From positions 1-64,000 of the forward strand of contig JAQVCU010000004.1 of the NCBI GenBank assembly GCA_028689635.1: a DNA stretch of 64,000 bases. Reading direction: 5' to 3'. The translations under genes were made by a program, and so were the position numbers. Shown in pieces: positions 34,216 to 48,080 of this stretch; the stretch's first letter is position 1; the number at the start of each line of letters is the position of its first letter. The notes beneath the pieces were generated by a model. It made no database searches, had not been told where the DNA came from, and worked only from the letters and a program-made list of their open reading frames with translations. Source of the DNA: Oscillospiraceae bacterium (GTDB lineage Bacteria > Bacillota > Clostridia > Oscillospirales > Ruminococcaceae).

Positions 34216-34220
34216 AAGAA

Positions 34221-34255
34221 AAAGGGACGGCAAAAGGGTGTCTCACTAAGGGATT
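34221..34255. other. Candidate attL of the element
   Basis: Host terminator arm AAAGGGACGGCAAAAGG + GTG + element arm TCTCACTAAGGGATT. Confidence 0.65.
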
Positions 34256-34263
34256 TTATACCT

Positions 34264-36019
<1,756 letters not shown>

Positions 36020-36084
36020 TCAAGGTTTATTTGCGGTCTTTGGTGTGAATTTTATGATAACGGCACGGCCTACCGCACAGGCGT

Positions 36085-36270
36085 TTATGCAGCCGTAGGC
36101 GTGGCGGGCGTTTCCGTAGTTTCATTGTTCAGTATCATCCTTTTTACCTTATCATATAGGCGTTCTCTGGCGCGGTCACTTTCAACGGAGACTACGGTGA
36201 AAAGCGTATCACCGACCTGCATTTCTGTGACACGGCTTGGTTTCTTGTTGGTAATGGTGTTCACATCCAT
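36085..36270 (-). CDS. TnpW-like small transposon protein
   Basis: 61 aa MDVNTITNKKPSRVTEMQVGDTLFTVVSVESDRARERLYDKVKRMI; pattern and location next to a TnpX-like recombinase resemble TnpW of Tn4451-type elements. Confidence 0.6.
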   Translation of the reverse strand: MDVNTITNKKPSRVTEMQVGDTLFTVVSVESDRARERLYDKVKRMILNNETTETPATPTAA

Positions 36271-36417
36271 ATCGTTCTCCTTTCCGACCCGGTAGGGCGG
36301 GTCTAATCTCTGTACCTGTATCTTCGGACAACGGGCGTTGGGTCTTACGCACAAATTCGCATAAGTTTTAGAGGGAATAGCCCCTGCAGGATACTGCCCA
36401 CAGGGGCCTCCCGGAAA

Positions 36418-37353
36418 TTATGCGGTCATCTGCATGACCTTAATGGCTTCGGGGCGAATCAGTTTGCCGTCCAGAAGTTCAAAGGCGAGGTAGCCGATCT
36501 GGTCGGTTTCGAAGAAACGCTCACGCAGGGTGCGGATGGTCATACTGGTACGCTCCACAATCCAGTAATAGCTGAAATCACCAAAGGCGATAGGCTTGCT
36601 GCCGGATTCCGCACCGGGCATATATTCGGAGATGTACACCTTCTTGCCCAGAATGGTATCGTTGGCGTGATTCCAAAGAGGCTGACCGGCGGCATCGGTA
36701 AGGGAGCGAATTGCCAGTGCGGTTTCGCTGCTCATCATCCACACGCCATTCTTGCGGTACTCCGGCTTGGCGGAGAAGAACAGCTTGACCACATTTTCGA
36801 AGGTGATGGCATCAGCGGTCACACCGACCTCTGCGCCGCCGTCCTCTGCCAGAATGCCGGTGGGCATATCTTCGCCTGTGCCGTTGATGAAGCCACGCTC
36901 CTCTGCATGGGCGAAATCCTTGACCAGTCTGTCAGTGAAATAGGACTCAAAGATGTTGTGGTTATCGTGCAGGAAGGATGCGTCAAGCTGCATAATGACA
37001 GCCAGCTTGTGGTCATTCAGCTTGTAGGTGCTGAAATCGTTGATGGCATCGTAGGCGTTGATGGCACCACCGGGGCCGACCCATTCAGCAGAATCGGTGT
37101 TGACCTTCGCAAGAATGGAAGAAGGGCCGTTGGGTGCATAGTGGTAGGTGGCAAGCTGACGGAACAGGCTCTCGGCATTCAGTTTATCCTCGAACTTTTT
37201 GGAAGAAGTAGTGGGCATCACATATGCGCCAGTAGTTTTTCTTCCGAGGTCGAGAATTTTTTTGTTGTCTTCCTTCCCCATGAGATAGTTCCAGAAGTGG
37301 TTGTGGTACTCCAGCTGATTGACGGGAGTAAAGGTATCGATAGTAGTATTCAT
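36418..37353 (-). CDS. HK97-fold phage major capsid-like protein
   Basis: 311 aa; ...SILAKVNTDSAEWVGPGGAINAYDAINDFSTYKLNDHKLAVIMQLDASFLHDNHNIFESYFTDRLVKDFAHAEERGFINGTGEDMPTGIL typical of HK97 gp5 family. Confidence 0.85.
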   Translation of the reverse strand: MNTTIDTFTPVNQLEYHNHFWNYLMGKEDNKKILDLGRKTTGAYVMPTTSSKKFEDKLNAESLFRQLATYHYAPNGPSSILAKVNTDSAEWVGPGGAINAYDAINDFSTYKLNDHKLAVIMQLDASFLHDNHNIFESYFTDRLVKDFAHAEERGFINGTGEDMPTGILAEDGGAEVGVTADAITFENVVKLFFSAKPEYRKNGVWMMSSETALAIRSLTDAAGQPLWNHANDTILGKKVYISEYMPGAESGSKPIAFGDFSYYWIVERTSMTIRTLRERFFETDQIGYLAFELLDGKLIRPEAIKVMQMTA

Positions 37354-37366
37354 AGTGAAATCCTCC

Positions 37367-37573
37367 TTAAATATTGTTAGGCTTGGTGGACAGACCGAGG
37401 GCGTTGCAATAATCTGCGAGGTCGGCGCAGTCCATATCGAATTCGGTATCGGTGTCATCCCTGCGGATATAAGGCACCTTGCTGATGTCCAGAGAGATGT
37501 TCTCCGGGGAGAAGATGGTGACCTTCTCATGCTTCTTGAGCTGCTTTTCAAAGAACTCTTTGGTCAGATTCAT
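37367..37573 (-). CDS. Small hypothetical protein
   Basis: 68 aa MNLTKEFFEKQLKKHEKVTIFSPENISLDISKVPYIRRDDTDTEFD with GGAGGTTTTTATT upstream. Confidence 0.6.
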   Translation of the reverse strand: MNLTKEFFEKQLKKHEKVTIFSPENISLDISKVPYIRRDDTDTEFDMDCADLADYCNALGLSTKPNNI

Positions 37574-37718
37574 AATAAAAACCTCCGTTTTGTTTGAATT
37601 AGGGTATATACCCCGTTTGAATATGCGAATTTGTGCGTGAGGCCCCACGCCCGTTGCACGGGTGAAAAGGTACAGAGATTTGCACCGCCCCTCCCGGACG
37701 CAGGGTACGCACGGGTAC

Positions 37719-37943
37719 TTAGATGACGGTGATGGGAACCGGCTTCTGGCGAAGATGCTGCTTTGCACAGAAAGCAAGGAACTCATCGTAGTCCTTGAAC
37801 ACAAGGTCACGGTGTCCGCCGTAAAGACGGATGTGGTGCTGCTTGCTGAATGTGACGGGAGTGCCGTCCTGCTTGTACAGGGTGATGGAATCGTGCTTGC
37901 GGAAATGCTCCGCCAAGAATTCCTTTTTGACTTCGTTTGCCAT
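37719..37943 (-). CDS. Small hypothetical protein, similar in layout to the 37367-37573 ORF
   Basis: 74 aa MANEVKKEFLAEHFRKHDSITLYKQDGTPVTFSKQHHIRLYGG with ribosome-binding site. Confidence 0.6.
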   Translation of the reverse strand: MANEVKKEFLAEHFRKHDSITLYKQDGTPVTFSKQHHIRLYGGHRDLVFKDYDEFLAFCAKQHLRQKPVPITVI

Positions 37944-37956
37944 AATGGTATCCTCC

Positions 37957-38241
37957 TTAAATTTTGTGACAGGCGTAGCACACATACAGGCCACGCTTGG
38001 TTTCGTTGATGACTCCGCTGATACGCTTCAGTGCCGTGCCGCAGCGAGGGCATCGGATATTGAAGTTGTCAGCGGAATTGCTGTTTTGGCTGTAGAGCCG
38101 GAAGTGGTGAGGAACCATCTCCTCAAGCCACATCTTGCTCTGTGCCTTGACTGTGTTGCCGTTGGGCGTGGGTATCATTGCCACCTTCTCCGTACCATCG
38201 GAATCACAGTCGATGAGTGGGTAGTAACGGATTTCGGTCAT
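37957..38241 (-). CDS. Small zinc-ribbon protein
   Basis: 94 aa with IRCPRCGTAL...LYVCYACHKI CxxC pairs. Confidence 0.65.
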   Translation of the reverse strand: MTEIRYYPLIDCDSDGTEKVAMIPTPNGNTVKAQSKMWLEEMVPHHFRLYSQNSNSADNFNIRCPRCGTALKRISGVINETKRGLYVCYACHKI

Positions 38242-38244
38242 GGA

Positions 38245-38499
38245 TTACACCGCCTTTCCGTCAGCGTCCAGAAAACGACCTCTGCAATATGCCAGTGCCT
38301 CTGCCTGCGTACCGAAGAATACGGAGGAAAAGCCGTTCTGCACTTTCCAGAAATCCATCGTCTTGTGACAGGACACCGCCACGGGCATACCACGCTTGTT
38401 CTGGAAGATGACATGGCAGTCATAGTCACGCTCGGAGAAATCCTTGGGACTGAAATTTTTGATACCCGGCTCAATGCCGTAGAAGAATTTGTGTCGCAT
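38245..38499 (-). CDS. Small hypothetical protein
   Basis: 84 aa MRHKFFYGIEPGIKNFSPKDFSERDYDCHVIFQNKRGMPVAVSCHKTMDFWKVQNGF; tightly packed with neighbours. Confidence 0.55.
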   Translation of the reverse strand: MRHKFFYGIEPGIKNFSPKDFSERDYDCHVIFQNKRGMPVAVSCHKTMDFWKVQNGFSSVFFGTQAEALAYCRGRFLDADGKAV

Positions 38500-38673
38500 T
38501 TTTCTGCTCCTTTCGTTGATTTTGGTTATATGGGTCACAGGGTGCTACGCAATCATAGGCACCGCCTCCTTTCCGCTTGGGGCAATGTGGCAAGTAATTA
38601 TGGTTAATTTCAAAATTTTATTTCCTATAGAAAAAACCTATAATCATCTGCCACATTGCCCCAGCCGTGTGAT

Positions 38674-40992
38674 TTATGTCAGCGGCGGGATGTCGAACTC
38701 CGTGAAGAGACGATAGCCGATGAGCATTGTGGTTTTCTCCCCGCCATACTTGGGGCGTTTGCGGACTACTTGGGCAAAAGCCTGCAGTCCCTGCTTGAAG
38801 TTTTTCATACTTTCCGGGTAGCAGCCGTTCTCTTGGCACCATCCCTTATAGCGGGCATATACCTTGGAGGTTGGTTCCTCGGCGGCAGCGTCCTCTACAA
38901 GGTTGTCCTCGAAGAACAGCACCATCTTGTCGCTATCGTGCTGATAGCGGTCTGTGGCAGCCTTCACTGACTGCGGCAGGTACAGTCCTTCCTTCTGCAA
39001 CAGGCGGTATCCCTCCAACAGCCAGTTGAGGATGGCACTCTGGACACCTTCCTCTGCAAAGCGGCGTTTCAGCGTGGTGTCACGGGACTGCTCATCGAAG
39101 TGCCTGTCGAACGGGATAATGATGATGCGGTCACTGGAAAACAGCGTCATATCGTTGATGACCGGCAGAAAGTTGGTGTTCACATAGATTTTGAACTGCG
39201 GCTGAAAATCAAAGCTGTTCTCATGAAGAAAACGAGCGTTGAGGGCATCGTTGCCGGTCATAGCCTTGACCTTGGCGGCATCAAGCACCATTCCTTTTCC
39301 CGGCTCCGGGATATTCACGAAGCGGACACCGGCAAGACGGGCCACATCCTCACTCGGCTGTGAGCCGTTGGTGTAGCTTTTCATAGCGATGGTCTCCGGG
39401 CGGGAGGCACAGCCGTAATCCCCAAGCACCTTCAGTACACTTTCACAGAGGGTTCCTTTGCCGTTACGTGTGGTCACGCCGTAAAGGATGGTCATGCATT
39501 CGTGGCGGGTATCCCCGGTAAGTCCGTAGCCGAGTATCTTCTGCAGGAACTTGGCTCTGTCGGCATCACCGCTCATGATTTCATCTATATAGGTGGCGAA
39601 ACGCTCCGAGTAAGCCGTTGGGTCATACACCACAGGACTGATTTTCGTAAGGAGGTCGGTGCTGCGGTGTTCGGTGAACTCCCCGGTGTCGATATGCAGA
39701 GTGCCGTTCCTGCAATTAAAAATGTAGATATCCGCATCAAAGCTGCCGTAGGAAATGGGATGATGCACCTGTGCGTCTTTGAGAATGTTGACCCTTATGG
39801 AGTGGCTCTGCCATCGGCTGGAATACTTGATGTAAGCCTTACGCTTATCCTCATCCTTGATTTCAAGGGCGAAGGCATACATGAGGTTTGCCAGATCCAT
39901 ACAATATTTCATTGCACGGAGATTGCCTGTGTCCGGCTGCCAGATGCCGTTATCGTAGTAGAACCATATCTTCCGCTCCGGCACATAGCGAAGGCGGTCT
40001 TGGAAGAAATCTGCGAAGATGCGTCCTGCGCCGATGTCGTTCCACGGATATTTCCTTCCGTCCATAGGGTCGAGTTCCTTGAGCCGTTCCAGACCGAAGT
40101 CCTCGGCGGCGGTGCAGGTGACGATAGGCTTGTAGCAGTCGGTCAGCCGAGCCACCGCCTTATCGATGGAGATATTGCCGTAGGTGTCTGCGCCACGGAG
40201 AGTATCCCACTTTTCACGCATCAAGCCGGACTGCCGGAACAGCCTGTCCATCTGCGCCTTGTCACCACTGCACCAGAATGCCAGCGTAGCAACGAGGGCG
40301 GCATCCGCTTCGCTCTGGCTCTTGTACCCGGTGATGTCCCCGTCCCACAGTCTGCGGAATTTCTCTCCGTTCTTGGCGGCAGAGGCTTTTGCGATGACCT
40401 CCTCATCACTGAGGTAGCTTTCGCCGGGAACAGCCACAGACGGTGTGGGCGGAGTGGGACGACGCATATAGGTGTCAAGCAGCCAAACAAGGGCATCTGC
40501 CGTTTCCGTCACATCGCCTTCCGTGATGGCGTTGCCGGTGACCGTGAGGAAACGATTGGTGTGACCGGGAATGTAGACCTCAATATCACCTTTCTTGATG
40601 TAGTAGGTCTTCGTATCGTAGATGAACCCGTCCGGCAGCAGACAGAAGATGCGGATGCCCGTGCCGGAGGGACTGACCTCGATATAGGTAGCACCGAAGA
40701 TGTCTACGATTTCCTGCGCCCACGGAAGCAGCTTGCCATCCACGATGCAATGGTCGAGGTCGATACCTACGATTCTGCCGTGGACACGGATGCCGATTCC
40801 TTCATAGCATGTTGTGGATGCCGCAGTCTCAAAGGCTGTGAAGGTGGCAGGGTCACTCACGCTGGCTCTGCGTGTTGTCCCCGGTGTGTAGGGCACCTTG
40901 GTTTTGTTGCCGTCCCGCAGTTCGTACTGCCAACAGCAGAACTGGCCATTGTCCTTGAGGAACTGCGGTATTTTTTCTAATTGAATTTGCAC
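38674..40992 (-). CDS. P4/D5-type phage primase-helicase
   Basis: N-terminal primase-polymerase-like region (GIGIRVHGRIVGIDLDHCI, SPSGTGIRIFC), D5_N region, helicase with YGVTTRNGKGTLCESVL (Walker A) and VRFVNIPEPGKG. Confidence 0.9.
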   Translation of the reverse strand: MQIQLEKIPQFLKDNGQFCCWQYELRDGNKTKVPYTPGTTRRASVSDPATFTAFETAASTTCYEGIGIRVHGRIVGIDLDHCIVDGKLLPWAQEIVDIFGATYIEVSPSGTGIRIFCLLPDGFIYDTKTYYIKKGDIEVYIPGHTNRFLTVTGNAITEGDVTETADALVWLLDTYMRRPTPPTPSVAVPGESYLSDEEVIAKASAAKNGEKFRRLWDGDITGYKSQSEADAALVATLAFWCSGDKAQMDRLFRQSGLMREKWDTLRGADTYGNISIDKAVARLTDCYKPIVTCTAAEDFGLERLKELDPMDGRKYPWNDIGAGRIFADFFQDRLRYVPERKIWFYYDNGIWQPDTGNLRAMKYCMDLANLMYAFALEIKDEDKRKAYIKYSSRWQSHSIRVNILKDAQVHHPISYGSFDADIYIFNCRNGTLHIDTGEFTEHRSTDLLTKISPVVYDPTAYSERFATYIDEIMSGDADRAKFLQKILGYGLTGDTRHECMTILYGVTTRNGKGTLCESVLKVLGDYGCASRPETIAMKSYTNGSQPSEDVARLAGVRFVNIPEPGKGMVLDAAKVKAMTGNDALNARFLHENSFDFQPQFKIYVNTNFLPVINDMTLFSSDRIIIIPFDRHFDEQSRDTTLKRRFAEEGVQSAILNWLLEGYRLLQKEGLYLPQSVKAATDRYQHDSDKMVLFFEDNLVEDAAAEEPTSKVYARYKGWCQENGCYPESMKNFKQGLQAFAQVVRKRPKYGGEKTTMLIGYRLFTEFDIPPLT

Positions 40993-41039
40993 TGTGTGTG
41001 CCTCCTTTCGATTTTATGTTGATGTTGGTGAGTGGGTGT

Positions 41040-41400
41040 CCTCCTTCACTACAAGCCGAAAAAGTCAACCCTCACTACCCACTGGAGGTCAAATCCCGGT
41101 TTGGCCCATGATTTTTGAAATTTGCTTCCCTCTACTCCTCTTTGGAGATGGGCGGTACGTTTTGACGAACTTCCGAGAAAAATTTTTCCTTCCCTCAGTA
41201 CAAGCCGAAAAATTCAACCCTCGTATCTTCCCACTGGAGAGGAATTTGGAATTTGAGCGGTTTCCTGCAAAAAAATTTCATTCCTCTGCCTATAAGCGAA
41301 AAATCCATCCGAATCGAACCCCCTTTCGCTCAAAAATGAGCAGAAGTTTTTCGTCCTCTCACTTACTACCGAGAAATTCAACCCCTACTTGGTAGCCACG
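41040..41400. repeat. Imperfect direct repeats (iteron-like) in the divergent intergenic region; candidate replication origin
   Basis: TACAAGCCGAAAAAGTCAACCCTC (~41050), TACAAGCCGAAAAATTCAACCCTC (~41199), CTATAAGCGAAAAATCCATCC (~41289), TTACTACCGAGAAATTCAACCCC (~41363); also two CCCACTGGAG copies. Confidence 0.6.
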
Positions 41401-41557
41401 GCGGAGAGCAAAACTTGAGGGTAAATGCGAAAAAGAGCAAAAAAATAAGCCCTCCCACAAGAAAATTTCTGTGAGAAGGCTGCTCGGTATTGAAAAGTTC
41501 ACATTTGCGTGATATAATATTATTCAAAGTGATTAGAAACACGCACGGAGGTGTGAT

Positions 41558-41794
41558 ATGGCTGTTAGTTATAAGAGACTGTTCCATCTGCTGATTGAGC
41601 GTGATATGACAACGACCCAACTTCAGCAGCAAGCCGGATTTTCATCCAATATCGTTCCCCGGATGAAACGAAACGGCTATGTATCCTTAGATACGATTGA
41701 AAGCATCTGCCGAGCCTTGGACTGCGGCGTAGATGATATTCTGGAATTTGTGCCGGATACCGGCAAAGATGGAGGTAACAACGATGGCGAATAA
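41558..41794 (+). CDS. XRE/Cro-type helix-turn-helix regulator
   Basis: MAVSYKRLFHLLIERDMTTTQLQQQAGFSSNIVPRMKRNGYVSLDTIESICRALDCGVDDILEFVP. Confidence 0.9.
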   Translation: MAVSYKRLFHLLIERDMTTTQLQQQAGFSSNIVPRMKRNGYVSLDTIESICRALDCGVDDILEFVPDTGKDGGNNDGE

Positions 41795-43484
41795 GCTTGA
41801 ATTAACATGGTACGGAAAGGACGAGCCTATTCGCATTGAGCCTCGTCTGCTGATTGAGAATGCGGCACTCTCCAATACTGCCGCTGACCCGGACACCGAG
41901 AATATGATTATCCACGGTGATAATCTGCTGGCGTTGAAAGCTTTAGAGACCCGGTTTGCGGGTCAGGTGAAATGTATATACATAGATCCACCTTATAACA
42001 CAGGTGCTGCATTTGATTATTATGATGATAATTTGGAACACTCCACGTGGCTGAATCTCATGTATAGTCGCTTGGTAATTTTGCGAAATTTGCTTGCAGA
42101 TGATGGTTTTTTCTGCTGCCAGATTGATGATTCCGAAGGTGCGTATTTAAAGGTGCTTTTGGATGAGATTTTCGGCAGGCATAATTACTTAAATACATTT
42201 TATATTCAAGTGCGCTACCCCAATAAGACTTTGGCAGAGGACAGCGACTATCAAAAAGTAATTGAACAGTGCCATGTGTACGCAAAACAGAGAAGTTTAG
42301 CGAAATTGAATAGGCCTCAAGCAGAATACGATATTGCTAAATTCAAATGGCGAGTGGTCGAGGACGCTCCGGGTGAAGTTGTAACTTTGGGCAATAAACG
42401 TGTCGAAATTTTCAAGCCTGATCAGTACCACATTGAGGAAATTGAGCCTTGCTTCGAAGGTTTGAAGGAAACTTGGGCAACAGGCTCGTTGGCCAGAGTC
42501 AAAGCCAGCGCCGGTGAATTCTTTGAATTATATTTAGCTGAGAGAAAAGATGTCGATGGCCTTGGCTGTCTTTATAAGGTAGAAGGCATTGGTGAAGACG
42601 GCTTGGGATACCGCTATATCAGTGGCCCTAAAAAAGCAACAGCAAATAAAGGAAAGTTTTATTCTGGAATTCCTCTCAAGAGGCTCGAAGAACTGAAAAC
42701 AGGAAAAAGTTTCAAGTACTTGCCGGTTGCTAATTTCTGCGATTTTGCCGGAAACTTCGGCAATTGCAGATTGGAAGGTAGCGTTGACTTCAAGGGTGGC
42801 AAGAAACCGGAGCCTCTGTTGGAGATGATACTCAAATACTATTCTAACCCCGGAGATTTTGTTTTAGACTCCTTCCTCGGTTCTGGTACAACTGCTGCCG
42901 TGGCACACAAAATGAATCGACGCTATATCGGTATCGAGATGGGTGACCACGCATATTCACACTGCAAATACCGTTTAGATAAGGTGATAGATGGCAGTGA
43001 TAAAGGCGGTATTTCTAAAACTATTGGATGGCAAGGTGGCGGAGGATATCGTTTCTTTGAACTGGCTCCATCTCTTATAAATTGCGACCCGTTTGATGAA
43101 TATGTTATCAACGAGGAATATAATGCTGATATGCTTGCCGCAGCAGTGGCCTTGCATGAGGGTTTCCGCTATCAGCCAGATGGTAGCTTGTTCTGGAAAC
43201 AGTCCGTAGGTAATGAAAGCAGTTATCTGTTCGTGACCACACGGCACCTCAACAGCACCTATCTGGATTCCATCAAGGACACTATGGAGGATGGCGAATA
43301 TCTCATCATTGCCTGCCGTTCCTTTGACAGCGGTTTGGATAAGGCGTATGGCAACATTACCATCAAGAAAATTCCGCAGATGCTTCTCAGCCGGTGTGAA
43401 TTCGGCAAGGCCGACTACAACTTAAACATTGTGCATCCGCCGGTATATGACGATGAGTGGGATGAGGAGGATTGCGATGAATAA
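41784..43484 (+). CDS. Type III restriction-modification system methyltransferase (Mod)
   Basis: YIDPPYNTGAAFDYYDDN (motif IV) before DSFLGSGTTAAVAHKMNRRYIGIE (motif I): beta-class N6-adenine methyltransferase order. Confidence 0.92.
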   Translation: MANKLELTWYGKDEPIRIEPRLLIENAALSNTAADPDTENMIIHGDNLLALKALETRFAGQVKCIYIDPPYNTGAAFDYYDDNLEHSTWLNLMYSRLVILRNLLADDGFFCCQIDDSEGAYLKVLLDEIFGRHNYLNTFYIQVRYPNKTLAEDSDYQKVIEQCHVYAKQRSLAKLNRPQAEYDIAKFKWRVVEDAPGEVVTLGNKRVEIFKPDQYHIEEIEPCFEGLKETWATGSLARVKASAGEFFELYLAERKDVDGLGCLYKVEGIGEDGLGYRYISGPKKATANKGKFYSGIPLKRLEELKTGKSFKYLPVANFCDFAGNFGNCRLEGSVDFKGGKKPEPLLEMILKYYSNPGDFVLDSFLGSGTTAAVAHKMNRRYIGIEMGDHAYSHCKYRLDKVIDGSDKGGISKTIGWQGGGGYRFFELAPSLINCDPFDEYVINEEYNADMLAAAVALHEGFRYQPDGSLFWKQSVGNESSYLFVTTRHLNSTYLDSIKDTMEDGEYLIIACRSFDSGLDKAYGNITIKKIPQMLLSRCEFGKADYNLNIVHPPVYDDEWDEEDCDE

Positions 43485-46125
43485 TTATTTTCCTCAATAC
43501 ACCACGGACTATATCAGTGGCGTCATGTCCCTGCGTAAACCGCAGGAGAAATCTCTCAAAATTCTGGAGGACATCGTAAACAGCGTTATGCTCCGCAAGG
43601 GTATGAATTTGAAAGCCGCCCTTGGTGCTGTCCACGCTATGTACCCGATCTGCTCCGATTTTGAGCGTGATTTCATGTCGCTGACCTTTGCCCTCGCTAC
43701 TGGCGTTGGCAAGACAAGACTGATGGGCGCATTTATTGCCTATCTGTATACCCAGCACGGCATCAAGAACTTTTTTGTCGTTGCGCCGAATACCACCATC
43801 TACGATAAGCTGAAAAGGGATTTGAGTGATAATAATAGTGCCAAGTATGTATTCAAGGGTCTTGGCTGTTTTAACACTCCTCCGCAGATTATTACGGATG
43901 ATGATTATAAGGATAAGCAATTATCGATTTTTGCGTCCGATATCCGCATTTTTGTATATAACATCGACAAGTTCAATAAGGAAGGCGCAAACATGAAAAA
44001 GGTGAACGAGGTCATCGGTGACTCGTTCTACCAGTACCTTTCCAATCTGTCGGATTTGGTGCTTATTATGGACGAATCACACCATTATCGTGCAGAGAAA
44101 GGCGCACAGGCCCTTAATGAACTGAATCCGCTACTCGGTCTGGAACTGACAGCCACACCGCTTGTGACTAAGGGTGCAAAACAAGTAAAGTTCAAGAATG
44201 TGGTATTTGAGTATCCGCTGTCCAAGGCTATCGAGGATGGCTATACCCGTACCCCGTTTGCGGTTACACGCTCCGACATTGATTTTTACAATTTTGGTGA
44301 CGAGCAGCTTGATAAAATGATGCTTCTGGACGGCATCACCTGTCACGAAAGCACCAAACGGAAACTGGAGGTCTATGCCGCCAATCACGGCAAACATCTC
44401 GTAAAGCCGTTTATGCTCGTTGTGTGCAAGGATACCGACCACGCAGCGTGGGTGGAAAGTTTCATCAAGTCCGATGAATTCCGCAACGGCGCATATCGCA
44501 ACAAAACCATCATCGTCCACTCCAAGCAGAAAGGCTCCGAGACCGAGGCGAACACCCGTCTGCTCCTCGATGTCGAGAACCCGGAAAACCCGGTGGAAAT
44601 CGTCATCCATGTCAATATGCTGAAAGAGGGATGGGATGTCAATAACCTCTATACTATCGTGCCGCTTCGTACCGCTGCATCCAAAATTCTGCGTGAGCAG
44701 ATGGTCGGCAGAGGTCTGCGTTTGCCGTATGGTGAGCGTACCGGGGACAGAGATGTGGATGCGGTCATGCTGACTGCCCACGATAAATTCAACGATATTA
44801 TCACGGAGGCACAAAAGGGTGACTCTATCTTCAAGGCCGGTAATGTTATCAAAGTTGAAGAAATCGTGCCGGAGCAGACCACTTACACACTCTTGACCAT
44901 TGAGCCTCCTACAGATACCACCCTTGATAAAGCCTACGAACATACGCAGTTGCCGAAAACGGATACCACGGACGCTCTGCTGAAAAAGGCGGCTGAAATC
45001 ATCAGCACGGAGGTTTCTAACCACATTCAGCACACACCGGGTCACACGGTTACCCCGGCACAGGCGCAGCAGATTGTGGAAACGGTCAAGCAGAAGGTTT
45101 CCGAGGATCGGGACTTGGGCGATGTGTTCAAGGAGAACGAAAATCCTCTTGCTGCATGGATGCTCTATCAAACGGAAGAAACCCATCGTGCCGCCGTCAG
45201 CAAATTTATTCCTATCCCTCGCATCAAGGTTACTGATGCAGGCGTCGAGGAATATGTATTCTTGGATTTTGACCTCGATATGGCTGAATTTACCCATGTG
45301 CCTATCAAGAATGAACTCCTCGTGCAGAACTTGGAGGATATGCAGGATAGGCAGCGTATCAAGGGTGAGGCTATCGATTTTGAGGGCTATAATCCGAAAA
45401 AGGTCATTCTGGAACAACTTCGTAAAAAGCCAGAAATTGACTATGAAAAATGCTCCGCTCTGTTGTTCAAGCTGATTACGCAGGTCTGCGACCACTATGC
45501 AGACCGCTATGGCATCAATGGTATGCAGAATATCATCATGATGTACAAGCGTGATATCGGCAATAAAATCTACAAGCAGATGCTTCAGCACTTTTACTGC
45601 GAGAACGGATTTCTGCAGGAGGAAGTGATTGGCACCAGAGATTACAATTTGGAACAGCATTATAACTTTAGTGAGCGTGTCGGCCTTTTTTCTGCTTATG
45701 CGGAAAAAATCCAGTCCGTTCTCTTTGATGGCATCAAAAAGGGCGTATTTGACAGAGCCAAGTTTGACAGCCACCCGGAACTGCTCCTTGCACGGGTATT
45801 GGAATATGATACCGATGTGCAGAACTGGCTCCGTCCGGCACCGCAGGAATTTAATATCACTTACAATCACGGCCACAGCTATGAGCCGGACTTCGTTGTA
45901 GAAACCGAAGGCGTTATATATCTCGTTGAAGTCAAAGGCGAAGATAAACTTAACGACCCGGATGTCATAGCCAAGAAAAAGCGTGGTATCCAGTATTGCG
46001 AAGTTGCTACCCGTTGGGGCAAGGCAAACGGCTATAAGGAATGGCAGTATCTGTTCATTCCGTCCAAGCAGGTTATGCCGAACTCCTCGTTCATGCAATT
46101 AGCAAAACAGTTCCACACACTATAA
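43477..46125 (+). CDS. Type III restriction endonuclease subunit (Res)
   Basis: LATGVGKTRLMGAF (Walker A), IMDESHHYRAEKG (DEAD-like), QMVGRGLRLPYG, C-terminal PDFVVETEGVIYLVEVKGEDK (PD-ExK nuclease). Confidence 0.93.
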   Translation: MNNYFPQYTTDYISGVMSLRKPQEKSLKILEDIVNSVMLRKGMNLKAALGAVHAMYPICSDFERDFMSLTFALATGVGKTRLMGAFIAYLYTQHGIKNFFVVAPNTTIYDKLKRDLSDNNSAKYVFKGLGCFNTPPQIITDDDYKDKQLSIFASDIRIFVYNIDKFNKEGANMKKVNEVIGDSFYQYLSNLSDLVLIMDESHHYRAEKGAQALNELNPLLGLELTATPLVTKGAKQVKFKNVVFEYPLSKAIEDGYTRTPFAVTRSDIDFYNFGDEQLDKMMLLDGITCHESTKRKLEVYAANHGKHLVKPFMLVVCKDTDHAAWVESFIKSDEFRNGAYRNKTIIVHSKQKGSETEANTRLLLDVENPENPVEIVIHVNMLKEGWDVNNLYTIVPLRTAASKILREQMVGRGLRLPYGERTGDRDVDAVMLTAHDKFNDIITEAQKGDSIFKAGNVIKVEEIVPEQTTYTLLTIEPPTDTTLDKAYEHTQLPKTDTTDALLKKAAEIISTEVSNHIQHTPGHTVTPAQAQQIVETVKQKVSEDRDLGDVFKENENPLAAWMLYQTEETHRAAVSKFIPIPRIKVTDAGVEEYVFLDFDLDMAEFTHVPIKNELLVQNLEDMQDRQRIKGEAIDFEGYNPKKVILEQLRKKPEIDYEKCSALLFKLITQVCDHYADRYGINGMQNIIMMYKRDIGNKIYKQMLQHFYCENGFLQEEVIGTRDYNLEQHYNFSERVGLFSAYAEKIQSVLFDGIKKGVFDRAKFDSHPELLLARVLEYDTDVQNWLRPAPQEFNITYNHGHSYEPDFVVETEGVIYLVEVKGEDKLNDPDVIAKKKRGIQYCEVATRWGKANGYKEWQYLFIPSKQVMPNSSFMQLAKQFHTL

Positions 46126-46137
46126 ACTCTACTGGCA

Positions 46138-46182
46138 TTAAGACCACACTGGGGATTTCCCTCGGTGTGGTCTATTTTTATG
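46138..46182. terminator. Terminator downstream of Res
   Basis: AGACCACACTGGGGATTTCCCTCGGTGTGGTCTATTTTTA. Confidence 0.7.
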
Positions 46183-46254
46183 CCCGGAAATCGGAAAGGA
46201 GGTGATGCCCGGTGTATGCAAATTTCAGCGGAAGGAGGTGTGAAAAAATCGTAG

Positions 46255-47484
46255 ATGGCGAAGAAATTAGACGCAGAGCGTATCGAACAGGCCCGGCACC
46301 AAGAACAAAAGCGCAGTGACCGTCGAGAGGAGCAAAAACGGGAAATCCAAGACACCATAGCAAAAAATCGCAGCGGTCAGCGCAAGGGCCGTGTCATTAT
46401 GCCAGAAAAGAAGGAGTACGCATATCAAGAGGCCCGCAAAGTGCGAGTGGCGGCATACTGCCGTGTCAGCACAGCCGAAGAAGCGCAGGTGGGCAGTTTT
46501 GAAATGCAGGTACAGCACTTCCAGTCCGTGATAGATAATAATCCGAATTATGAACTGGTCAAAATCTATACGGACGAAGGTATAAGTGGCACTTCTGTAG
46601 GCAAGCGAAAGGGCTTTCAAGAGATGATTGAGAATGCTTGTGCCGGGAAAATCGACCTCATCCTCACCAAGAGCATCAGCCGCTTCGGTCGTAACATTGT
46701 GGATATACTGACCACGCTGCGCACACTGAGTGACCTTAATCCCCCGGTGGCGGTGAACTTTGAATCCGAGGGCATTAACACCAGTGATGGCAAAAACAAA
46801 CTGGTCATATCCATTCTGTCGGCCTTGGCAGAACTGGAAAGTCAGCAAAAAAGCATTGCAATCAAGGAAGGCATACGCTACCGAATGCAGGAGGGTCTGT
46901 ACAAATACTCTGTAAAGAACACCATCGGCTACTATCGAGATTATTCCGGCAGGGTCAAAATCGAGCCTGCAGAGGCAGAAATCGTGCGATATATCTTCGA
47001 TAGCTTTACAGAGAGTGCTTCACCGAGGGAAATTGCGGAATCCCTCACGGAGCAAGGGATACGCTCTCCGAAGGGTATGGAATATTGGCGGCAGGCTACC
47101 ATCAAGAATATTCTCAAAAATGAGAAATACTGCGGCGATGTTCGATACCAAAAAACCTACTCCAAGGACTACTTAACCCACAAAACGGCGAAGAATAACA
47201 ATATTCTGCCACAGTGGTATTGGGAGAATGACCATCCCGCCATCATAAAGCGTGAGCAATGGAACAAAGCGCAGGAACTGCTTGATGCCGGAAACTGGCG
47301 TAAAAGCAGTAAGCCGTTGGAGGCTATGAAGAAGAAATTCACTGTAGCCAAGGTCAAATCCGGCGTTCTGCGAGGGTATTTTCTCCTCGATATGATGTGG
47401 TCAAAGGAAGAACGAGACCAGTTCATTCAAATTATCAACAGTATTAACGAGCTTGACGATGGTCAAGAAGAAAGGAACGAATAA
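46255..47484 (+). CDS. Second serine recombinase (resolvase domain + recombinase domain, no obvious zinc ribbon)
   Basis: RVAAYCRVSTAEEAQVGSFEMQVQHFQ, YTDEGISGTSVGKRKGFQEMI, LTKSISRFGRNIVD, WRQATIKNILKNEKYCGDV. Confidence 0.93.
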   Translation: MAKKLDAERIEQARHQEQKRSDRREEQKREIQDTIAKNRSGQRKGRVIMPEKKEYAYQEARKVRVAAYCRVSTAEEAQVGSFEMQVQHFQSVIDNNPNYELVKIYTDEGISGTSVGKRKGFQEMIENACAGKIDLILTKSISRFGRNIVDILTTLRTLSDLNPPVAVNFESEGINTSDGKNKLVISILSALAELESQQKSIAIKEGIRYRMQEGLYKYSVKNTIGYYRDYSGRVKIEPAEAEIVRYIFDSFTESASPREIAESLTEQGIRSPKGMEYWRQATIKNILKNEKYCGDVRYQKTYSKDYLTHKTAKNNNILPQWYWENDHPAIIKREQWNKAQELLDAGNWRKSSKPLEAMKKKFTVAKVKSGVLRGYFLLDMMWSKEERDQFIQIINSINELDDGQEERNE

Positions 47485-47486
47485 TT

Positions 47487-47909
47487 ATGGCAATCAATTT
47501 TTCTACTATCAACCTTGAGGTTATCGATATCAACACCAACGCTGCCCCTGACATCTTCATCAACCAGAACGGCATCACCTTCAGCAAACGTGTTCTGGAG
47601 GACTTGAACTACCCGCAGAATGTCCAGTACTGCTTGGACGCTGCCCACAAGGTGTTCGCCATCCGTGTCTGCAAGGGTAATGAGGCCAAGGCCACTCCGT
47701 TCTCCAAGCCGAGAGCCGAGCAGACCACCACGCTCTCCTGCGGCAACAAGAACCTGCGTGATGTTATCGTTGCAATGATTCCCGGTTTCGATGCCAAGAA
47801 GCGTTATAAGGTGACCGGCGAGTACGATGCGGAGAATCGTGTCATGTACTACGATATGGCCACAGCCGAGGAGTCCAATTTCCGCAACAATGTGGCAAAT
47901 GCTGAATAA
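47487..47909 (+). CDS. Hypothetical protein translationally adjacent to serine recombinase
   Basis: 140 aa ORF starting 2 nt after the recombinase stop, preceded by GAAAGGAACG ribosome-binding site. Confidence 0.7.
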   Translation: MAINFSTINLEVIDINTNAAPDIFINQNGITFSKRVLEDLNYPQNVQYCLDAAHKVFAIRVCKGNEAKATPFSKPRAEQTTTLSCGNKNLRDVIVAMIPGFDAKKRYKVTGEYDAENRVMYYDMATAEESNFRNNVANAE

Positions 47910-47949
47910 GAGGTAAGGACGGCATCCCGGAAAGGCGGTGATATAGAAA

Positions 47950-47995
47950 AAGACCACACAGCCGACATTGTAGTCAGTTGTGTGGTCTTTCTGTT
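47950..47995. terminator. Terminator at right end of element
   Basis: AAAGACCACACAGCCGAC...GTTGTGTGGTCTTTCTG. Confidence 0.75.
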
Positions 47996-48040
47996 GACAC
48001 CGCTTGAGGACGTCACTCAAAAATTATCGTTGTTTTCAAT

Positions 48041-48080
48041 AATCCCTAAGTGAACGCTCCAAATGCCGTCCCCTTTTTTG
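48041..48080. other. Candidate attR of the element
   Basis: Element arm AATCCCTAA + GTG + host arm AACGCTCCAAATGCCGTCCCCTTTTTT. Confidence 0.65.

Follow-up and report, generated by a model that had tools for sequence, protein, structure and literature searches.

A lone HK97-type capsid gene lies within an integrated element of 13.8 kb (34232-48062, ends accurate to a few bp) in the window, the 64,000-nucleotide stretch of an Oscillospiraceae contig (JAQVCU010000004.1) that was analyzed. The capsid ORF is intact and reads on the minus strand from an ATG at 37353 to a stop at 36418 (311 aa), with the Shine-Dalgarno sequence AAGGAGG ahead of it. It is part of a core operon on this strand that consists of a P4-type primase/helicase of 772 aa (38674-40992; D5_N, Pox_D5, NrS-1 HBD and primase_Cterm), four small ORFs, the capsid gene, a TnpW-like protein of 61 aa (36085-36270; Pfam TnpW, 5.8e-7) and a TnpX-like large serine recombinase of 552 aa (34298-35956; Pfam Resolvase, Recombinase, Zn_ribbon_recom and DUF4368). 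The small ORFs encode an 84-aa protein of a conserved family (38245-38499; ORF84-type cluster in 44 loci), a 94-aa zinc-ribbon protein with four invariant cysteines (37957-38241), a 74-aa protein (37719-37943) and a 68-aa protein that the 74-aa protein resembles by sequence comparison (37367-37573). The 68-aa ORF belongs to a family common to relatives such as L003 and L083 and had no above-cut-off library match. A first-pass annotation, made without database searches, had described a lone, intact capsid gene in a transposon-like operon, and three profile libraries agree on its identity as a major capsid gene. The primase, TnpW and TnpX-like genes do share one strand as it stated; it had counted five small ORFs besides TnpW, and four have ribosome-binding sites.

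The plus strand carries a Cro/C1-type (HTH_26) regulator of 78 aa (41558-41794; Pfam, 1e-17), a type III restriction-modification cargo (41784-46125; PADLOC, Pfam) made up of mod (41784-43484; PADLOC type III MTase, 2.5e-134) and res (43477-46125; PADLOC REase, 2.2e-145), a second serine recombinase (46255-47484; Pfam) and a 140-aa ORF beside it (47487-47909). The recombinase and the 140-aa ORF (46255-47909) form the far end of the element, and a near-identical pair stands at the far end of the relative L122; from this comparison the pair is possibly a separate module. Rfam gave no match above the gathering threshold.

Searches of the element with Pfam, PHROGs, NCBIfam and related-phage profiles recognized no portal, terminase, protease, connector or tail gene, a profile-based absence by which unrecognizable genes would be missed. 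The earlier claim that the element holds no other structural or packaging gene is upheld to this extent, and the small ORFs, where portal or terminase homologues might have been hidden, gave no above-cut-off match to either in Pfam, PHROGs or NCBIfam. Phage_portal was absent from the whole source genome (89% complete). Tn4451-type transposons carry a mobilization (relaxase) gene. The window element shares with them a TnpX-like large serine recombinase and TnpW and differs in its primase, capsid gene and restriction-modification cargo and in the lack of a relaxase, which was found neither among the window element genes by Pfam scan nor among the genes scanned in L094, L142, L157 and L122.

DNA homology to the elements L083, L084 and L091 breaks off at 34232/34233, and inverted AATCCCT-type termini are present at both ends; the limits first given, 34238 and 48052, lie about 10 bp or less from the termini at 34232 and about 48062. 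Flank comparison identified the two halves of a split intrinsic terminator on the plus strand, the left at 34219-34231 and the right at 48065-48079, and joining the flanks in silico restored the hairpin: AAAAAGGGACGGC..GCCGTCCCCTTTTTT. A G+C-rich stem with a T run after it is split between the two flanks of the window element, L176, L094, L122, L142 and L157, and from this arrangement the loop of Rho-independent terminators appears to be where the elements insert. The 10-13-bp stems spanning the element in L094, L122, L142 and L157 gave sizes of 12.6, 7.8, 12.7 and 12.1 kb, respectively, and the delimited members range from 7.8 to 13.8 kb. TTTTT occurs immediately beyond the recombinase-side terminus in 32/54 loci (no chance expectation was computed). 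In a congener without the element, the left flanking gene continues directly into window sequence from 49431 on; this site also lacks 1.4 kb of neighboring host DNA and so is not a perfect empty site.

A second copy (L176) was located in the same genome at about 8907-13803 of contig C103. It is a 4.9-kb deletion derivative in which the restriction-subunit, primase and capsid pieces are fused or cut and the recombinase and TnpW are present, and it likewise divides a terminator stem (CCCCCGCC / GGCGGGGGTTTTT). In the window, a 79-nt inverted repeat (36285-36363 / 37622-37700, 77% complementary) brackets the 68-aa ORF and the capsid gene, and comparable repeats bracket the capsid region in L003, L083, L084, L006, L096 and L114. 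Phase-variable inversion of this capsid cassette was considered and rejected: 89/89 clustered capsid and 87/87 primase ORFs read on the same strand, and none of the clustered relatives showed the cassette inverted.

The capsid protein matched Pfam Phage_capsid (E = 2.6e-63), NCBIfam major_cap_HK97 (TIGR01554, 3.5e-68) and the PHROG major head protein (8.8e-63), and the Phage_capsid and TIGR01554 scores far exceed the cut-offs. The TIGR01554 match begins at model position 85 of 385, which was the first hint that the N-terminal delta domain is missing. Once truncated or fused ORFs had been removed and only lone proteins of 295-325 aa kept, 93/93 full-length lone proteins measured 299-319 aa, compared to 390-408 aa for 59/59 full-length phage relatives. 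The difference corresponds to the delta (scaffold) domain of ~95 aa, which is absent from all 93 full-length lone proteins and present in the phage relatives (59/59 by length, 13/13 by alignment). In the alignment, the lone chains start at the phage-protein junction between the delta domain, whose end reads ..KTGRAS, and the mature N-arm (..YKxAFWNxMR); KTGRAS would be the protease site, judging from its position. Because the delta domain is missing, the lone capsid protein is evidently made in about its mature form. Fifty-four positions are conserved in both the lone and the phage groups.

The AF2 model of the window capsid is a confident HK97 fold (pLDDT 90.4, pTM 0.86), and the fold as predicted is complete. 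The best Foldseek matches were all HK97-fold capsids: the RcGTA capsid, phage Mycofy1, the cf-PICI EcCI2 capsid and HK97. The RcGTA capsid gene is part of a full gene-transfer-agent head-tail cluster. Among solved structures, the RcGTA major capsid (PDB 6tb9, 6tba) was the best match by fold and also ranked first in the PDB profile search (6.4e-50), where the EcCI2 capsid was the second-best distinct family (6.2e-33). A relationship to HK97-type capsids or to encapsulins had been considered in the first-pass annotation; the first is borne out by the AF2 and Foldseek results, and no encapsulin was detected at E<1 by the PDB profile search or among the best 50 fold matches.

Selection on the capsid gene was measured as dN/dS, which was 0.03-0.20 over about 100 capsid pairs (0.133 for the window and L083); these are whole-gene averages from non-independent pairs, several of them close to saturation. 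The values indicate purifying selection in all usable pairs. A quick maximum-likelihood search, with phages chosen by similarity to the query, gave a tree in which a branch with full support has every lone protein on the same side.

About 100 relatives with the same arrangement, 40-96% identical and mainly from Clostridia, were collected by scanning GTDB genomes, viral contigs and annotated phages, with 64 phage loci as controls; many relatives are metagenome-assembled, and contamination may account for some of the host assignments (e.g., Prevotella, Bacteroidales). A primase is encoded just upstream of the capsid gene in 73/81 testable lone loci versus 0/44 phage controls, and a recombinase just downstream in 80/85 versus 0/57. 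The downstream recombinases of these 80 lone loci comprise 71 serine and 9 Tn916-type tyrosine enzymes. Terminase, portal, protease and connector profiles matched 42-58 of the 64 phage loci, and related-phage profiles gave only three stray matches in lone loci (L094, L017 and L011). The L094 match, a ClpP-type protein, is encoded on the opposite strand about 6 kb outside the element, and the L017 match is a fragment beyond the L017 recombinase gene. The class was also sampled separately: in 291 genomes, 38/39 capsid genes of the phage type had a portal gene within 6 kb, compared to 0/11 of the lone type (Fisher p about 3e-10). The capsid-primase-recombinase set, whose recurrence had been raised as a question in the initial reading, is conserved in many Clostridia elements without a terminase.

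The family thus comprises widespread integrative elements of Clostridia and some other bacteria, with a core operon of primase, small ORFs including the zinc-ribbon protein, one HK97 capsid gene, TnpW in some cases and a recombinase. Its companions across the family are a divergent regulator and cargo that is largely restriction-modification, and an HTH_17 (AlpA-like) gene is present in some members. The zinc-ribbon family is encoded close upstream of the capsid gene in 66/101 loci; the AF2 model of the protein (pLDDT 89.6) had no PDB fold match. A family of about 317 aa, represented by L125 (4760-5719, minus) and its relatives, is encoded on the strand opposite the core operon in 20/101 loci and had no Pfam or PADLOC match. 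Six genomes from six bacterial families (L168-L173) carry elements that are about 91-97% DNA-identical over long aligned parts, with partly different cargo. Because of this identity across families, the L168-L173 elements have evidently moved between them recently by horizontal spread.

Several characterized systems share features with the family. SaPIbov5, a cos-type pathogenicity island of staphylococci, is, like the window element, satellite-sized and encodes an HK97-fold capsid homologue, Ccm; no protease was identified there, and only Ccm was found in particles (PMC8569155). Provided that the window element is a satellite, it too would carry a satellite-encoded capsid homologue. Ccm differs in having an 87-residue delta domain that is cleaved off, which the lone family lacks, the recombinase and host group are different, and the function of Ccm is proven whereas that of the lone capsid is deduced. 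The cf-PICIs are about 14 kb (PMC10803314) and also carry an HK97-type capsid, that of EcCI2 (PDB 9gyi) being a top 10 fold match; their capsids enclose their own genome, whereas the lone elements have neither packaging genes nor a delta domain. Encapsulins share the HK97 fold without portal, terminase or delta domain and a probable prophage-capsid origin (PMC8346489). They differ in that the lone capsid has no detectable sequence match to them and sits in a mobile element without a cargo gene; a family-profile scan of the conserved neighborhood found no known family of encapsulin cargo enzyme. PICMIs and P4-like satellites have an integrase or recombinase, an AlpA-type HTH in some members, a primase and defense cargo (PMC10803314, PMC8628076). 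PICMIs lack a capsid-remodeling gene and integrate at fis (PMC10803314), and P4-like satellites remodel through an external size-determining scaffold (PMC7552001). The family is best classed as a variant of satellite-like elements and is not assigned to the cf-PICIs, encapsulins or Ccm because it lacks the packaging genes of the first, the sequence match and cargo of the second and the delta domain of the third.

The likeliest reading, held tentatively, is that the element is a phage satellite whose delta-less subunit co-assembles with the capsid of a helper phage and redirects or poisons it. It is rated first because the element's size, regulator, primase and defense cargo fit a satellite. 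PICI, P4 and cf-PICI elements are 9.5, 10 and 14 kb (PMC10803314), and the PICI-like trait of a small integrated element with a recombinase, a regulator and a primase and no complete phage structural set is present. The fixed position of the capsid gene between primase and recombinase also supports this reading, as do the purifying selection on it, the missing packaging genes, the AlpA-like gene of some members and the lack of a relaxase among the genes scanned. In HK97, the delta domain provides the main shell-portal contacts (PMC10275583) and is essential for assembly according to the title of Oh et al. 2014, cited in the same paper. Because of these contacts, a delta-less subunit would need a delta-bearing partner, and alone it should not build a portal-bearing head; it would either join a helper shell or form a portal-less one. 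Neither the redirection or poisoning of a helper capsid nor the missing delta domain was part of the first-pass annotation.

We infer a sequence of events that would start with the induction of, or infection by, a helper phage with an HK97-type head. The element would be excised by TnpX/TnpW and replicated by its primase, and the delta-less subunit would join the helper's growing shell as SaPIbov5 Ccm does, with delta domains, portal, protease, terminase and tail supplied from the helper side. Heads of reduced size or changed form would result, taking up the 8-14 kb DNA of the element, shutting out the helper genome, or both. Ccm forms the pentamers of phi12 heads in place of the phage protein, shrinks the heads and does not form capsids by itself; it is an imperfect precedent because its delta domain is present until it is cleaved after assembly (PMC8569155). 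No helper was identified: portal-type prophages occur in 4/11 lone-element genomes versus 70/280 others, which is not significant, and 7/11 genomes with lone elements show none.

Unlikely, yet foremost among the alternatives, is an encapsulin-like compartment in which the delta-less protein self-assembles into a small closed, portal-less shell that, while the element excises, replicates or transfers, would hold nucleic acid or element proteins such as its primase or the zinc-ribbon protein. A nanocompartment had been suggested before, and the missing delta domain speaks for it, as does an HK97 fold without portal or packaging genes, all as in encapsulins, whose ancestors were probably prophage capsids (PMC8346489). 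Beside the capsid gene, that of the zinc-ribbon partner is conserved, and such a shell would require no helper, consistent with the genomes that lack detectable portal genes. These points are opposed by the absence of encapsulins from the PDB sequence matches and best 50 fold matches, the lack of a cargo enzyme, the encoding of the capsid with replication and recombination genes rather than in a metabolic operon, and the title of Oh et al. 2014, which calls the delta domain essential for HK97 assembly. It is doubtful that an independent domestication within a mobile element turned a phage capsid into a portal-less shell serving the element's own replication or transfer and not host metabolism, and equally doubtful that such a domesticated shell, made with a primase and a recombinase, is a second, transposon-borne route to encapsulin-like compartments.

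Rather improbable is pure interference, in which a dominant-negative lone subunit would poison the assembly of incoming phages and add to the restriction-modification cargo with no role in mobility. The restriction-modification cargo of many elements, the lack of packaging genes and the core fold positions conserved in both lone and phage capsids are consistent with such a role, but the capsid gene is in the core operon between primase and recombinase and not among the cargo, and its low dN/dS, a whole-gene average only, gives no sign of an arms race. It is quite unlikely that the element is a satellite that builds a complete shell by itself and takes just the portal, terminase and tail of a helper. 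The cf-PICIs do build their own capsids (PMC10803314), the predicted fold is complete and the capsid of EcCI2 ranks high in both the fold and the sequence searches; this proposal of the first-pass annotation is nevertheless weakened by the loss, from 93/93 full-length members, of the domain that contacts the portal in HK97 (PMC10275583) and by the lack of terminase, portal, protease and connector genes. The chance survival of an intact gene from a decayed prophage is very improbable: damaged copies exist, the C103 element and L122, both with primase and capsid cut by deletion, but 93 full-length lone proteins, purifying selection, a fixed gene position and about 91-97% identical elements in six bacterial families refute a relic at the family level, as had been argued from operon position and intact frame, and only the window's single copy could still be silent. 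A sporadic, decaying leftover is likewise contradicted, although one deletion-damaged copy lies elsewhere in the source genome.

Lone "phage major capsid protein" genes in Clostridia are easily taken for prophage debris. About a hundred of them constitute a single family that is under selection, lacks a scaffold domain and packaging partners and is nonetheless fixed in a mobile operon, and this family makes the question of what a virus capsid protein can do alone directly testable. If the satellite reading is true, the elements would make up a family of capsid-hijacking satellites widespread among gut Firmicutes; under a rival reading, they would point to a novel defense against phages or to protein nanocompartments having arisen a second time. 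No description of elements combining capsid, TnpX and primase was found in the open-access papers searched, and a prior description elsewhere is possible; the satellite papers among them describe no such elements in their titles or abstracts. Virome surveys should be aware that the nearest IMG/VR matches to the window capsid are such elements and not phages. The remaining stray locus, L011 (3663-5162), encodes a capsid that is lone-type to about residue 258 and then 96-100% like that of phage L069, followed by a phage head-tail connector. The breakpoint is near the conserved FGDFSYYW motif, and L011 is either a product of element-phage recombination or an assembly chimera.
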